Assembly (NCBI GenBank): GCA_015233055.1
Contig: JADFYN010000011.1
Coordinates: 1 to 33,871 of the forward strand
DNA length: 33,871 nucleotides
Reading direction: 5' to 3'
From: Deltaproteobacteria bacterium
Lineage (GTDB): Bacteria > Desulfobacterota > JADFXK01
Below the pieces are notes generated by a model. It was not told the origin of the DNA, did not search any database, and worked only from the letters and a program-made list of their open reading frames with translations. Positions 4,729 to 33,825 of this stretch are shown here, piece after piece. Positions within the stretch are counted from its first letter, which is position 1. Every line of letters begins with the position of its first letter. The position numbers were made by a program, and so were the translations under genes.

Positions 4729-6096
4729 ATGGCCAAGAAGGTCTTTCTCAGTGAAGAAGAAATGCCTAAAAAATGGTATAATATTCAGGCTGACATGCCC
4801 ACTCCAGTCCTCCCGCTAATTAATCCTGGGACCGGTCAGCCGATTCCTTTAGATCAATTTGCCCGTATTTTTCCAATGAGTCTAGTTGAACAAGAAGTTT
4901 CTAAAGAAAGATGGATTGATATCCCGGATGAAGTGTTGAGCGCCTACACTATCTGGCGTCCTACACCGCTATGCCGGGCATATAATTTTGAAAAATTGCT
5001 CAACGCTCCAGTCAAGATCTACTACAAGAATGAAGGGGGCAGCCCCGCAGGCAGTCACAAGACCAACACCGCTGTGCCGCAGGCTTTCTATCATAAAATG
5101 TCCGGGGTTAAAAGAATCGTATCGGAAACGGGTGCCGGTCAATGGGGCAGCGCCATGGCCTTTGCCGGGAACTTATTTGGAATTCAGGTCAAAGTTTACA
5201 TGGTCAGGGTGAGTTATGAACAGAAACCGTACCGCAGGCTTATGATGATGACCTGGGGGGCGGATTGTGTGGCTTCTCCTACGAATACGACTGAGGCTTG
5301 CCGCCGGGTTCTGGCCGTAGACCCTAACTCACCCGGAAGTATTGCTATTGCCGTTAGTGAAGCGCTGGAAGAAATGGCAAGTCGGGATGGCACCAAACGA
5401 ACCGTGGGTAGTGTCCTTAACTATGTCATGCTTCACCAAACCGTGATGGGTTTGGAAGCGCAGAAACAGATGGACAAGATCGGTGAATACCCCGATGTGG
5501 TTATCGGCTGCGCTGGAGCCGGGAGCAACCTGGCCGGGTTGTCCTTCCCCTTTGTCAGAGATAAGATTGCGGGAAAAAAAATACTTATTATTGCTGCCGA
5601 ACCTTCCTCTTGCCCGACCCTGACCCGAGGGCGATTTGCCTATGATTCTTCCAGCTCTGAGAAGGGAATCACATTATTGCCCATGCACACCTTAGGCCAT
5701 GATTTTATTCCTTCACCCATCCACGCCGGTGGGTTGCGTTTTCACGGGATGGCCCCATTGGTCAGTCAACTGGTGTTGGATGGACTGATTGAGCCACGCT
5801 CTTATCACAATCTGGAGACGTTCCAAGCTGGAGTTATGTGGGCGCGGAGCGAAGGATTCATTCCCGCACCGGAGACGAACCATGCCATTGCCGCCGTGAT
5901 CGAAGTGGCCCGCCAGGCCAAAGAGGAAGGAAAAGAAAAAACTATTTTGTTCAACTGGACTGGGCACGGATTGCTTGATTTGGCAGCATATGACGACTAT
6001 TTAAGTGGTAGGCTGACTGATTACGCCTTGCCACAGGAAGAAATTGAGCGGAGTCTGGCCTCCATTGATGGTTATCCCAAACCTCCTCGGAGATAA
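4729..6096 (+). CDS. trpB2: Tryptophan synthase beta-like protein, type 2 (TrpB2)
   Basis: This PLP-dependent enzyme converts indole and serine to tryptophan. The start at 4729 is set by GAAGGAGG six bases upstream; a longer frame from 4636 has no ribosome site. The product is 455 residues, the usual TrpB2 length. The PLP-binding lysine is in GSHKTNTA (Lys 111), the ETGAGQWG loop is at 133-140, and a GCAGAGSN phosphate-binding loop lies near 250. The N-terminal extension with PTPVLPLINP and the WRPTPL motif fits type 2 rather than the TrpA-partnered type 1. No trpA or other trp gene is near, so it may be a salvage or stand-alone enzyme. Confidence 0.93.
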   Translation: MAKKVFLSEEEMPKKWYNIQADMPTPVLPLINPGTGQPIPLDQFARIFPMSLVEQEVSKERWIDIPDEVLSAYTIWRPTPLCRAYNFEKLLNAPVKIYYKNEGGSPAGSHKTNTAVPQAFYHKMSGVKRIVSETGAGQWGSAMAFAGNLFGIQVKVYMVRVSYEQKPYRRLMMMTWGADCVASPTNTTEACRRVLAVDPNSPGSIAIAVSEALEEMASRDGTKRTVGSVLNYVMLHQTVMGLEAQKQMDKIGEYPDVVIGCAGAGSNLAGLSFPFVRDKIAGKKILIIAAEPSSCPTLTRGRFAYDSSSSEKGITLLPMHTLGHDFIPSPIHAGGLRFHGMAPLVSQLVLDGLIEPRSYHNLETFQAGVMWARSEGFIPAPETNHAIAAVIEVARQAKEEGKEKTILFNWTGHGLLDLAAYDDYLSGRLTDYALPQEEIERSLASIDGYPKPPRR

Positions 6097-28448: not shown

Positions 28449-30185
28449 TCAATTGTCCGATTTCCCTAACTCAACCATCCGGCCGATAAATTGACTGGGC
28501 GGGAGGTAATCGACCAGGCGCAGGTCGTGCCTTTCTGTCCCTTTTTTGTTCAGGAAGACGATGGTGGGAACGCCCTTTACCCCGTACTGCTGCAGCAACT
28601 GTTCGTGTACCGGATTACCGCCTTTAGTCACATCGACCTTGATCATGATAAAGTCTTTTTCCGCCTGGTTGACAATCGCCGCGTCATGGAACGTAACCTC
28701 TTCGAGTTCCCGGCATGGAGTGCACCAGGTGGCGTAGAAATCAATGATGACCGGTTTATGTGATCTTTGGGCCGCCTGTAGGACGACGTTCGAGTAGGGC
28801 TTCCAGGCAACCCCCGGACCGTGCATGGCCCAGGAGGTGATGATAAAGGTGGCCAGAATGAAGCCGGCGACACCAGCGACCATTTTCATCTCGGCAAAGG
28901 CTTTAAAATCAGCCTGATTCCGGTCAATCCAGCCCAGGTGCAGCCCCGCCGCCAGGGCCACCCCGGCCATGAGAAATACTTCTGCGGATTCAGGCAAAAT
29001 GGGCCTGATAAAGTGAACCGCCAGACCGATCAGGACCCAGCCCATCAGCTTCCTGGTCCAAAGCATCCAGCCTCCCGAACGGGGGAGCTTGTCGAGTTGT
29101 GCGGAGAAGACGGCCAGGCAGAAGAGAGGGAATCCTAAGCCCAGGCTTAAAGTGAAAAAGACGAGAAACCCGATCCAGGGGCTGCCCAGGCCGGCCACCC
29201 AGGTGAGTAATCCCAGAATGAACGGGCCGATGCACGGCGCCGCGACCACCCCCAACGTCAGGCCCATAAACAGACTGCCGAAGTATCCCGAGTAAGATTT
29301 TGCCGCCGCCTGAGTCAGACCGCCCGGAAGCCGAAGTTCCCAGAGATCAAGCAGGCTGGTGGCGAAAAAGACCAGTATGGTTGCGACAGCTATGAGCACT
29401 AGTGGATTTTGGAGGATAGCCCCCATCAGGCCGCCGGTTAGAGCCGCGATGACGCCCAGCGTTGAGTTGGTTATGGCCAGGCCGAGCATATAGCACAGAC
29501 CGTGGGTCACGAGATTGCCCCGGCCGGCCTGACCGCCGAAAAAGGAAACGGTGATCGGAATCAATGGATAGACGCAGGGGGTCAGGTTCAGAGCCATGCC
29601 GCCGACAAAGACGCCCAGGAGTGTCCAGATCATAGCCCAGCCATAGAGCGGCCCAGGGGTGGTCGGCTCTTCGCTTGACCGAGATTGCCCGGCCGGGATG
29701 CTGTCAATGGGCATACCCATTTGTTGCCATTCAGGATACCCGTGCGGGTCCCGATAAACGTTCTGGTAACCAAGTTTTACGGCCACCCGGGCCGCCGAGT
29801 CGCTTCGGACTCAGGTTAAGCCGGCTCAGTAAAAGACGATCAGGCGGTCCTTATCCGGTCCCAGGAATGCTTCCAGGGCCGGGGCCTTTTGCCGCCTCGA
29901 CCACCAGGTTGGTTCCATGGGGAAATTTTGAGCGCCCTTAACATGTCCTGTTCGGAACTCCCACTCCTGACGGGTGTCCACCAAGAGAAGATGCTTGGGA
30001 TCATTCCGGTAGAGTTTGGCGAGTTCCTCGGATGTAATGATCCGGTAGCCCCCGATCTTGGCTTCAGCCAGGACATCCGTCCAGGTGGCCTCCCGGGGGG
30101 TGACGGCCCGGTTGGTCAGCCAAAGAGCCCCAAAGGTGATCATCACCGCGGCCAGGGCCAGGCAAGTCATCCTCTTATTGGACAT
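28449..30185 (-). CDS. Rhodanese-DsbD fusion, probable selenoprotein with two selenocysteines
   Basis: Read through two in-frame TGA codons (29826-29828 and 29811-29813), this is one 578-residue protein. Residues ~7-24 form a membrane anchor, and ~45-155 a rhodanese domain (LLLVDTRQEWEFRTGH). Its active loop reads FY-U120-AGLT-U125-VRSDSAA, where relatives have FYC....C..S..AA. A DsbD-type eight-helix membrane domain follows (Cys 204 in LTPCVYPLIPI, Cys 317 in AAPCIGPFILG) and a thioredoxin domain with WCTPC (Cys 488, 491). The usual N-terminal DsbD alpha domain is absent. The ATG at 30185 has AAAGGA six bases upstream. DsbD carries electrons from cytoplasmic thioredoxin to the periplasm, so the selenocysteine pair may be the final acceptor. 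Read conventionally it splits into two false genes (a rhodanese ending at 29826 and a DsbD starting with GTG at 29786). Confidence 0.85.
29779..29814 (-). promoter_or_regulatory. Candidate bacterial SECIS hairpins for the two TGA codons
   Basis: On the - strand, CTGAGTC-CGAAGC-GACTCGG (29795-29814) folds with its loop 18 bases after the first TGA. CGGCC-CGGGT-GGCCG (29780-29794, plus a G-U pair) has its loop 21 bases after the second TGA and includes GGGT, like the GGU of known loops. Bacterial SECIS loops generally lie about 16-37 bases after the TGA. Which hairpin serves which codon is unclear. Confidence 0.55.
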
Positions 30186-30294
30186 AACCAGTCCTTTCGA
30201 TGTAGACCGCAACTTATTCAAGCTCTAAATCTTTCCCTCACGCTTCAGCTTGCAAGCACCTGGTTGTCGTCTCCTCAAGATTGGCCCGGCCCTG

Positions 30295-31383
30295 TCAGGG
30301 CTTGCAGGTCATATGGCAAATACCGGCGGGTGTTTCCATGGCATACGGAAAATATTTCCTTTTGAACCAAAGGGAGACATTGACCAGACTGATCAGGACC
30401 GGCACCTCAACCAAAGGACCAATGACGGCCGCAAAGGCCTGACCCGAGTCTATCCCGAACACGGCCACGGCTACGGCAATGGCCAGCTCAAAATTGTTGG
30501 ACGCAGCAGTGAAACTCAGGGTGGTGGACTGCTCATAGGTGGCGCCCATCTTCATGGACAGCACGAAAGACAAGAAGAACATGACCACGAAATAAATACA
30601 TAAGGGAATGGCTATCCGGACGACGTCCCAAGGTAGTTGGACAATGTATTCACCTTTCAGGGAAAACATGACCAGAATGGTGAAGAGGAGGGCAATCAGC
30701 GTAATCGGGCTGATTTTGGGGATGAACTTTTGCTCGTACCAGTCCCGCCCCTTGGTCTTTAACCCGATCAACCGGGTCATAACGCCGGCAATAAAGGGTA
30801 TGCCCAGGTAAATGAACACACTCTGAGCGATTTGGCCGATGGACACGTTAACAACAGAGCCCTTCAGTCCCAGCCATTGGGGTAGGACGGTGATGAAGAC
30901 GTAGGCGTAAATAGAAAAGAACAAGACCTGAAAAATGGAATTGAAGGCGACCAGACCGGCGCAGTATTCCCGGTCACCGTAGGCCAGATCATTCCAGACG
31001 ATGACCATGGCAATGCACCGGGCCAGGCCGATCATGATCAGGCCGACCATATACTCAGGCCGGCCGGAAAGAAAAGCCACAGCCAGGGCAAACATCAGGA
31101 TCGGCCCGATAACCCAATTTTGGACCAAAGACAGGATGAGGACCCGGACATTCCGAAAAACCGGCCCCAGTTGCTCATACTTGACCTTGGCCAACGGCGG
31201 ATACATCATCAAGATCAAACCAACGGCGATGGGTAGATTTGTTGTGCCCACCTGAAACTGATTGATCACATTGCGAATATCTGGATAAAGAAACCCGGCG
31301 CCGACACCGACGAACATGGCCAGGAATATCCATAAAGTTAAGAATCTATCTAAGAAGGAAAGTCTCTTGCTTGCAGTCGACAT
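30295..31383 (-). CDS. acr3: ACR3 family arsenite efflux permease
   Basis: A 362-residue membrane protein of ten or so hydrophobic segments. Family motifs include [37 protein letters not shown] with its conserved functional cysteine, and [17 protein letters not shown] followed by [13 protein letters not shown]. It exports arsenite using the proton gradient from the inner membrane. It lies 39 bases after the ccdA-like gene and 109 bases before the rhodanese-DsbD fusion, on the same strand. A 48-base internal piece (31167-31214) is repeated exactly at the right edge of the window. No arsR is visible; it may lie beyond the edge. Confidence 0.93.
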
Positions 31384-31422: not shown

Positions 31423-32130
31423 TCAGGCCACAATAAATGGGCTGCTGACGAAATATACTCCCAGGAGGCCGATAACCGCGCCGGCGCCTTTACGAAACCA
31501 GAGACCGGCTCCTTGCCAGGCGCTGTTTTCCATAACTTTTCTCACTGCCGCCCCGGAGGTTCCGGCGACGACAATAGGCAGGCAATGGCCAATGGCGAAC
31601 AACAGAATAAACATGATCCCGGTGGCCACCTTTTGCTGAATGGTGATGATAGCCAGGATAGGGGCGATAAATCCGAAGGTGCACGAGCCGGAAAGAATCC
31701 CGTAAGCCAGACCCAGGAGACCGGCTCCGAACAGGCCGGTGACCTTTAACCTGGTCAATAATCTACCGGAAATGGAACATTTTTCTACCCCAAGCATACC
31801 CAGGGCGACCCAGATGAGGACCAGCCCCACCAATATTTTCCAGTAACTTCCGACATCACCCAGCATCCGCCCCAGCAGAGCGCAAATGATCCCGACCAGG
31901 GCAATGGACACGAACAGGCCCAGGCTGAAGGCCACGGCGTAATATCCGGCCTGTCTCGGCTCCAGCACCTGCCGCTGACCAGCGACATAGGCGACAATCA
32001 GGGGAATCGAGGCCAGATGGCAGGGACTGAAGACCACGCTAATCATCCCCCACAGGAAGCAGCCTAGGCCCGCCAGCGATGTTTCTGCGATCATCCAATT
32101 ATTGACGGTCAGGAACAACGATTCAATCAT
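31423..32130 (-). CDS. CcdA-type cytochrome c biogenesis / thiol-electron transfer membrane protein
   Basis: This 235-residue protein has about six membrane segments and the two redox cysteines of the CcdA/DsbD-beta family: Cys 37 in VFSPCHLASIPL and Cys 150 in SGSCTFGFIAPIL. The family passes reducing equivalents across the inner membrane to extracytoplasmic thioredoxin-like proteins. GGGGAG lies nine bases before the ATG. The gene follows that of a membrane-anchored thioredoxin, its likely partner. In an arsenic cluster it probably serves a thiol-redox step rather than cytochrome c maturation, which is inference. A second transporter of this kind is fused to rhodanese downstream. Confidence 0.9.
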   Translation of the reverse strand: MIESLFLTVNNWMIAETSLAGLGCFLWGMISVVFSPCHLASIPLIVAYVAGQRQVLEPRQAGYYAVAFSLGLFVSIALVGIICALLGRMLGDVGSYWKILVGLVLIWVALGMLGVEKCSISGRLLTRLKVTGLFGAGLLGLAYGILSGSCTFGFIAPILAIITIQQKVATGIMFILLFAIGHCLPIVVAGTSGAAVRKVMENSAWQGAGLWFRKGAGAVIGLLGVYFVSSPFIVA

Positions 32131-32238: not shown

Positions 32239-32631
32239 CTATTTAACCCCCATTTGGCTAAGCTGCTGGACTATGGCGTTTTCGTCCATGAACCCGACGT
32301 GGCGAAAGGCCTCTTGACCATTCTTATCAAAAAATATTTGGGTCGGGATGGCCCGGATGCCGAACTTAGCGGCTTGATCGCGGTTCTTCCAAACATCGAT
32401 AAAAATGATAGCTGCCTTTCCCTGGTACGATTTCTCCAATTTTTCTAAAATAGGAGCCATCATCTTACAGGGAATACAGGATGTAGCCCCTAAATCGACC
32501 ATGGTGACCATGCCCTTTACGGGGACTTCTTTATTAGACTCCGCGGTCCGGGCGATTACAGCCCACCCACCGAGAAGGGAGGCGACAAGCAAGATCAGCG
32601 TGATATATTTAACCTGATGTTTTGTTAACAC
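32239..32631 (-). CDS. Membrane-anchored periplasmic thioredoxin-like protein
   Basis: A 130-residue protein starting at GTG (32631) with GAGGAAG six bases upstream. A longer frame to 32790 runs through the neighbouring spacer and is rejected. An N-terminal membrane segment (YITLILLVASLLGGWAVI, ~9-26) should anchor it facing the periplasm. The thioredoxin fold carries CIPC at 52-55 in place of CGPC, a central IIFIDVWKN strand, and the cis-proline in RAIPTQIFF. It probably exchanges electrons with the CcdA-type protein encoded 108 bases downstream. Confidence 0.9.
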   Translation of the reverse strand: MLTKHQVKYITLILLVASLLGGWAVIARTAESNKEVPVKGMVTMVDLGATSCIPCKMMAPILEKLEKSYQGKAAIIFIDVWKNRDQAAKFGIRAIPTQIFFDKNGQEAFRHVGFMDENAIVQQLSQMGVK

Positions 32632-32640
32632 ATTATTCTT

Positions 32641-32748
32641 CCTCTTTGAAAATAATTTGCTTCCGGCACAGCGGACACCTGGTTTGCCTGGCGTCGTGAT
32701 TCTCCGGCCGTGATTGTTGAGTTCATCATGCCCATGGTGCTGGTCCCC
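32641..32748 (-). pseudogene. Possible frameshifted small metal-binding protein
   Basis: In the spacer between the DGC and thioredoxin genes, one frame begins MGGDQHHGHDELNNHG (ATG at 32755, no good ribosome site), and a neighbouring frame carries NHDARQTRCPLCRKQI with a stop just before the thioredoxin start. Joined by a frameshift near 32700-32710 they would give a His-rich, CxxC-ended protein of ~40 residues. This may be coincidence; no family is recognised. Confidence 0.2.
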
Positions 32749-32767
32749 ACCCATGAGGCCAGGCTGG

Positions 32768-33190
32768 CTAGCCGCGACAACTGCAAGCACATTGAGGCAT
32801 GGCAGAGGGTGTGACCGGCCGAACGTTTTTTTGCCTGACAGCTTCTTTAGCCCGCATGATTTGATCCCGGGGGAGATCCAGATTCTTATTTTTTTCGATG
32901 CCCAGATCGGTCAAGATCAGATAACTGCCGACGGACACCTGAGCCTGGTCCATAATGGCTTTGGCGCAGCCGACGGAACATCCGTCAATAACCACCACCT
33001 GCGGAGCGTCAGAGGCGGCTTTAACGAACTTGGCCAACCCGGCCCCGATCCCGGCCAGACAGAACATCTTGCCGAATCCTTCCTTGGTCAATTCCACCGC
33101 CGCCTGATTGGACAACTGACCGACATTTGATCCTCCGGAACAGGCTAAAATTAAGGTATTTTCTCCGGTCATGGAACCTTGTGGTAACAT
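32768..33190 (-). CDS. Putative zinc-binding protein, DGC domain
   Basis: A 140-residue protein of the DGC family, named for the Asp-Gly-Cys motif seen here in VVIDGCSVGCAKAIMD. Other conserved parts are LILACSGGSNVGQLSNQAA and FCLAGIGAGL; the conserved cysteines are thought to bind metal. The ATG at 33190 has AGGAG seven bases upstream, better placed than the ATGs at 33205 and 33196. The C-terminus adds three closely spaced cysteines (QCACSCRG). DGC genes often occur beside small thioredoxins and permeases in arsenic or metal clusters, as here; the exact role is unknown. Confidence 0.87.
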   Translation of the reverse strand: MLPQGSMTGENTLILACSGGSNVGQLSNQAAVELTKEGFGKMFCLAGIGAGLAKFVKAASDAPQVVVIDGCSVGCAKAIMDQAQVSVGSYLILTDLGIEKNKNLDLPRDQIMRAKEAVRQKNVRPVTPSAMPQCACSCRG

Positions 33191-33214
33191 TTTCATTCTC
33201 CTCATAGGATAAGA

Positions 33215-33448
33215 TTATTTATTGATCCAGGAGGTTACATCTTCCTTTTTGGGCACCTGGCCTGATATCTTTACCTCTCCGTCCACAATCACGGCCGGGG
33301 TCATGAACACGCCGTATTTGGCGATTTCCATGATATCCGACACTTTTTCTATTTTGGCCTCAACCCCGGCAGCAGCCACCGCTTGCTTGACGATATTCTC
33401 CGTTTCGTGGCATTTCTTACATCCAGGTCCTAATACCTTTATCTCCAT
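33215..33448 (-). CDS. Small thioredoxin-like redox protein (GCKKC type)
   Basis: A 77-residue cytoplasmic protein of the short thioredoxin family often annotated as redox-active disulfide protein 2. It opens EIKVLGPGCKKCHET with the redox pair Cys 10 and Cys 13, and has the cis-proline loop MTPAVIVDGEV. GGGAG precedes the ATG. It lies 24 bases upstream of the DGC gene and after the permease gene, the usual order of this module in many anaerobes. It may reduce or carry the thiol-bound metalloid, an inference from context. Confidence 0.9.
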   Translation of the reverse strand: MEIKVLGPGCKKCHETENIVKQAVAAAGVEAKIEKVSDIMEIAKYGVFMTPAVIVDGEVKISGQVPKKEDVTSWINK

Positions 33449-33498: not shown

Positions 33499-33825
33499 CT
33501 AAATGATCATATTGAATATATATCCGACAAACAAAATGCCGCAGATGACTATACCCAGAAAAGTAACGATCAACCTCATTTTAAGCACCTTTCTCAGAAT
33601 GACCGTCTCAGGTATCGACACCGCGATAACCGACATCATAAAGGCCAGGACGGTTCCCAAGGCCGCCCCTTTTTCGAGCAGGGCCTGAACGACGGGCACA
33701 ATTCCGGCTGCGTTGGAATATAGGGGAATGCCGATTAACACTGCCAAGGGCACCGACCACCAATGCCCTTTCCCCATGAAAGAAGCCAGAATGTTTTCCG
33801 GAAAATATCCATGAATACCGGCTCC
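33499..33825 (-). CDS. ArsP-like permease (PF03773/DUF318), C-terminal part, 5' end lost at a junction
   Basis: Frame continues upstream of the ATG at 33777 through GAGIHGYFPENILASFMGKG, and WWSVPLAVLIGIPLYSNAAG, typical of the permease family, to about 33825. There it breaks: the next codons contain a stop at 33832-33834, and the DNA becomes a copy of part of the ACR3 gene. Only ~107 C-terminal residues remain, with about three membrane segments. Relatives export organoarsenicals or act in metal and redox clusters. The gene is either truly truncated or cut by an assembly error at the window edge. Confidence 0.8.
   Translation of the reverse strand, partial: GAGIHGYFPENILASFMGKGHWWSVPLAVLIGIPLYSNAAGIVPVVQALLEKGAALGTVLAFMMSVIAVSIPETVILRKVLKMRLIVTFLGIVICGILFVGYIFNMII

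Follow-up and report, generated by a model that had tools for sequence, protein, structure and literature searches.

TsoB is catalogued as a 'rhodanese/DsbD fusion-like selenoprotein' with two selenocysteine (Sec) residues in a UxxxxU motif in a 2026 review (PMC13188914, citing Haft and Tolstoy 2025), where Tso stands for three-selenoprotein operon. The family is represented by NCBIfam model NF045694 (seleno_TsoB), and its nearest described relatives are DsbD (NF001419) and the rhodanese-like selenoproteins, forms 1-4 (e.g. NF041203). Here we compare with these systems a gene from a window of 33,871 nucleotides, the whole stretch of DNA that was analysed.

The gene lies on the minus strand (28449-30185), running from an ATG at 30185, with an AAAGGA ribosome-binding site upstream, to a TGA stop at 28451-28449. 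Its frame is interrupted solely by two in-frame TGA codons at 29828-29826 and 29813-29811. Reading both as Sec yields a product of 578 amino acids in which Pfam identified Rhodanese (residues 53-155), DsbD_TM (186-397) and Thioredoxin (473-548) domains, with the rhodanese loop reading FYUAGLTUVRSDSAA. The first-pass annotation had placed two TGA codons, five codons apart, inside a single rhodanese-DsbD-thioredoxin frame, and both the positions and the frame were confirmed.

NF045694 matched the joined protein with 989.4 bits, compared to a cut-off of 805, and covered residues 7-572 with positions 3-570 of its 572. The domain order (rhodanese, DsbD-type membrane domain, C-terminal thioredoxin) and the UxxxxU motif with two Sec (U120 and U125) are those of TsoB, and the gene is thus almost certainly a two-selenocysteine member of this family, tsoB. 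The model matches from end to end and the review lists TsoB, so that the architecture, of which the first-pass annotation knew no described example, is already catalogued; the finding is sound, but not new. The protein resembles DsbD in its membrane domain with two invariant cysteines and its C-terminal CxxC thioredoxin, which gave a match of 246 bits to NF001419 over residues 180-570. This score is, however, below the cut-off of 330, and a rhodanese bearing two Sec takes the place of the N-terminal α domain of DsbD. With the other Sec rhodaneses TsoB shares the rhodanese fold and a Sec within or close to the active loop, whereas those proteins contain one Sec in other motifs, and TsoB reached 32 bits against the NF041203 cut-off of 115.

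Conservation of the two TGA codons and the putative recoding hairpins

A search of GTDB genomes retrieved 25 loci homologous to tsoB, the loop being covered in 24. In 23 of these 24 species TGA was found at both positions, i.e. at the position of the rhodanese catalytic cysteine (UGA 1, 29826-29828, Sec120) and at the second position of the loop (UGA 2, 29811-29813, Sec125). The remaining homologue (L031) carries TGC and TGT, respectively, so that Cys codons align with both TGAs, as the first-pass annotation had proposed to check. We regard this Cys form as a natural paralogue because the same genome (Cys/Cys copy L031/L090) also carries a TGA/TGA copy (L089), giving a natural pair of Cys/Cys and Sec/Sec TsoB for comparing Cys with Sec in one organism.

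A second survey covered 395 evenly sampled Desulfobacterota genomes and counted full-length copies above the TsoB family cut-off. Such copies were present in 21 genomes, each having a copy with exactly two TGA codons; as this survey overlaps with the GTDB homologue set, the two counts are not additive. The double TGA is maintained across many families of the phylum while the flanking protein stays intact, and the pattern is far from a chance origin. Among the organisms that carry TsoB is the cultured Desulfacinum infernum DSM 9756 (L037). A pseudogene or a sequencing error was rejected since the arrangement is conserved in the 21 surveyed genomes, including one single-contig genome. Separately, one locus (L030, from position 5358) keeps both TGA codons but lacks approximately 17 residues after UVRSD, including the downstream hairpin described below, and may be a pseudogene or an assembly error.

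Two adjacent hairpins follow UGA 1 on the minus strand. Hairpin H1 (29797-29812; stem GAGUC/GACUC, 6-nt loop CGNAGY) is the putative bacterial SECIS element (bSECIS) of UGA 1, and hairpin H2 (29779-29795; stem GCGGCC/GGCCGU, 5-nt loop CGGGU) that of UGA 2. With the first nucleotide of UGA 1 as position 1, H1 occupies positions 17-32 and H2 positions 34-50. The H1 stem starts within UGA 2, and because UGA 2 thereby overlaps the base of H1 both signals are packed end to end. According to PMC13188914 a bSECIS has a stem of 4-16 bp, a loop of 3-9 nt with G in one of the first two positions, a distance of 16-37 nt from the UGA and a minimum free energy of at most -7.5 kcal/mol. In both hairpins G is the second loop nucleotide; H1 shows a spacing of 18 nt and -8.3 kcal/mol, two weaker outer pairs included, and H2 a spacing of 21 nt and -9.5 kcal/mol. 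The proposed check for bacterial SECIS elements was thus positive for either hairpin.

In an alignment of 23 sequences, 100% of the H2 cells were paired, with two-sided changes in two pairs (7 cells), a result reached in 0 of 500 shuffles, and the pairing collapsed once the partners were slid by 1 to 3 columns. These changes fall at third codon positions (GCG/GCC, GCA/GCT, GCT/GCA and GCC/GCG), and H2 is likewise maintained, rare exceptions aside, in a set of 39 distinct Sec sequences. H1 was paired in 94.8% of the cells of the 23 sequences, and RNAalifold, given no guidance, recovered H2 together with the inner portion of H1. The Asp codon within H1 is GAC in 39 of 39 distinct Sec sequences versus 46% GAC among the Asp codons elsewhere in these genes, a contrast that is not to be read as a probability as related sequences are not independent. 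The assignment as SECIS elements rests on comparison between species because the window sequence by itself exhibited no excess folding stability over dinucleotide shuffles (z about -0.1 to -0.5); a search of Rfam gave no credible match in this region. The paired hairpins with their synonymous covariation add a testable detail to what is described for TsoB.

The reading of both TGAs as Sec is very well supported. The earlier proposal that Sec stands at both loop cysteines agrees with the 23 TGA/TGA homologues, the natural Cys/Cys form, the paired SECIS-like hairpins and the presence of selB, tRNA-Sec and selD (see below), and the conservation provides independent evidence for a two-selenocysteine loop across Desulfobacterota.

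Structure model and proposed electron route

An alignment of 16 proteins shows six invariant redox positions: U/C120 and U/C125 in the rhodanese loop, C204 and C318 in the membrane domain, and C488 and C491 in the thioredoxin domain. Folding the rhodanese part from its single sequence gave a poor model, which was set aside. The AlphaFold2 model has a mean pLDDT of 73.8, with values of about 90 across much of the rhodanese part and moderate confidence in the membrane part. It predicts an N-terminal helix (residues 4-24) and places residue 120 between strand 115-119, which it directly follows, and helix 127-137, corresponding to the rhodanese catalytic loop. Fold comparison matched the N-terminal part with rhodaneses such as 6mxv, 3nhv and 2hhg, and the thioredoxin part most closely with the γ domain of DsbD (1uc7).

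Our preferred reading, to which we assign a probability of roughly 0.65, is a TsoB protein with hairpin-directed double Sec insertion, in which electrons pass in the manner of DsbD to two periplasmic selenols acting on a periplasmic substrate. SelB and tRNA-Sec would decode both UGAs, each most likely via its own hairpin 18 to 21 nt downstream, and the N-terminal helix would hold the protein in the inner membrane. Electrons would pass from cytoplasmic thioredoxin to C204 and C318, the cysteines of the DsbD-type membrane domain, from there to the C-terminal thioredoxin motif (C488 and C491) and finally to the selenol pair U120/U125 in a periplasmic rhodanese domain, which would occupy the place of the N-terminal exit domain of DsbD. 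The pair would then reduce a periplasmic substrate, or take sulfur or a metalloid from one. By analogy such transfer is the likely mechanism; topology, electron order and substrate are inferred, the route being modelled on what is established for DsbD. The idea that the selenol pair is fed by the protein's own DsbD and thioredoxin domains, already put forward in the first-pass annotation, is plausible, all six redox residues being invariant.

Alternatively, the selenol pair might serve sulfur or selenium transfer, as in a rhodanese that forms persulfides or selenosulfides, instead of acting like a dithiol reductase, with the DsbD and thioredoxin parts only regenerating it by sulfide release. 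The Pfam assignment as rhodanese, the predicted position of U120 after a strand in the catalytic loop, and the polysulfide-sulfur transferase 1qxn among the fold matches are all consistent with this function. The invariant second Sec five residues away and the fused reducing conduit, however, fit a two-electron redox pair better, and the TsoB loop is longer than that of ordinary rhodaneses, so that we hold a transferase role to be less likely.

Gene neighbourhood and the arsenic cluster

TsoA and/or TsoC motifs were found near tsoB in 36 of 43 oriented loci. In 17 loci tsoB has an ArsR/SmtB-type regulator nearby, almost always upstream and on the same strand, one example matching the NCBIfam TsoR. 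The window differs from this usual setting in that tsoB has no adjoining tsoA, tsoC or tsoR and is preceded by an arsenic cluster instead. The arrangement of tsoB beside tsoA and tsoC, which is not part of the definition of the TsoB protein, is thus not seen here. The incomplete MAG likewise yielded neither TsoA nor TsoC, an absence that carries little weight as the models gave no match in any control genome.

All genes of the arsenic cluster are on the minus strand. Directly upstream of tsoB is a gene for an ACR3-family arsenite efflux transporter (30295-31383; TIGR00832, 466 bits), followed by genes for a CcdA/DsbD_TM-like membrane thiol-redox protein (31423-32130; PF02683), a thioredoxin-like protein with a CIPC motif (32239-32790; PF00085), the true start of which is probably downstream of 32790, a DGC-domain protein (32768-33205; PF08859) and a small thioredoxin-like protein of the MTH895/ArsE family (33216-33448; TIGR00412, 105 bits versus a cut-off of 62). 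The contig end truncates the last gene, of which the 3' part is present (33499-33777), coding for an ArsP_1-type permease (PF03773). The terminal 58 bases of the contig (33814-33871) duplicate a segment of the ACR3 gene (31157-31214, 96.6%) and are joined to the truncated ArsP-like gene. In a sister species the ars cluster occurs in two copies, and the contig therefore probably breaks in a repeat.

The sister species carries on one contig (G026:C11) the same ars genes and then genes for TolC, MFP, an ABC permease and ATPase, tsoR, tsoA and tsoB. The window matches this contig on both sides, joined at 30251/30252, where 6.3 kb are missing; of these, only 291 bp match elsewhere in the genome, and the absence may be a real deletion or an assembly gap. 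Because the sister species likewise carries ars genes and tsoB on a single contig, we rejected the possibility that a random chimera had brought them together. Two further genes were observed around these loci. On the sister contig (locus L115, 4000-23912) a molybdopterin oxidoreductase of 1070 amino acids is encoded upstream of the ars genes, with the tetrathionate reductase TtrA as best match, below the cut-off, and weaker matches including ArrA. A membrane protein of ~220-230 amino acids, TVP38/DedA-like by eye and with no match in NCBIfam, is encoded near tsoB in 13 loci (L115 and 12 others), mostly downstream.

The surroundings raise the question whether TsoB functions in arsenic detoxification here, its selenol pair binding or reducing periplasmic arsenic species alongside ACR3. 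This would be a recruitment of TsoB specific to the genus, to arsenic or another metalloid, with the membrane conduit feeding the selenol pair next to the exporter and with the SECIS hairpins back to back, the second UGA in the H1 stem. Such a role would agree with the ACR3, CcdA-like, DGC, ArsE-type thioredoxin and ArsP-like neighbours, with the occurrence of the same cluster on the contig bearing tsoR-tsoA-tsoB in the sister species, and with TsoR being a regulator of the ArsR/SmtB type. Against it, ACR3, ArsP or the DGC protein was not found near any TsoB locus beyond that of the sister species, where, moreover, ~6.3 kb including the TolC-MFP-ABC exporter separate ACR3 from tsoB. We therefore consider an arsenic function unlikely; judged from the loci compared, the arsenic link characterizes this genus rather than the TsoB family. 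Together with the conserved loop, the hairpins and the Cys/Cys paralogue, this genus-level link offers a way of approaching the biochemical function of the Tso system.

Selenocysteine decoding genes

The MAG from which the window derives (79.7% complete, 527 contigs) contains two tRNA-Sec genes with anticodon UCA, two SelB genes and a SelD gene that itself contains one TGA; SelB and tRNA-Sec, by which bacterial selenoproteins are judged, thus occur together in this genome. SelB was also above the cut-off in 22 of the 25 genomes with tsoB homologues. Of the selA, selB, selC and selD genes that the first-pass annotation had proposed to look for, SelB, tRNA-Sec and SelD are accordingly present, but selA was not found in this MAG. 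The missing selA is the one observation in favour of the TGAs being read otherwise (as Cys via a UGA-reading tRNA-Cys, or as Trp) or of the gene being broken, readings made highly improbable by the two tRNA-Sec(UCA), SelB and the TGA-containing selD, by the double TGA conserved throughout the phylum in otherwise intact protein, and by the use of TGA to terminate other genes here, those of the CcdA-like protein and tsoB itself.

A third SelB-like match (contig C501) was set aside as EF-Tu, with which its frame of 403 amino acids and a neighbouring tRNA-Trp gene agree. The two SelB proteins of the MAG (G000, contigs C521, C163 and C3; L019, L017 and L018) share only 30% identity, and the duplicated SelB and tRNA-Sec genes on these contigs point either to a second set of decoding genes or to a contig of foreign origin. 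On contig C163 selB adjoins a tRNA-Sec gene, beside HdrA/HdrB-like genes.
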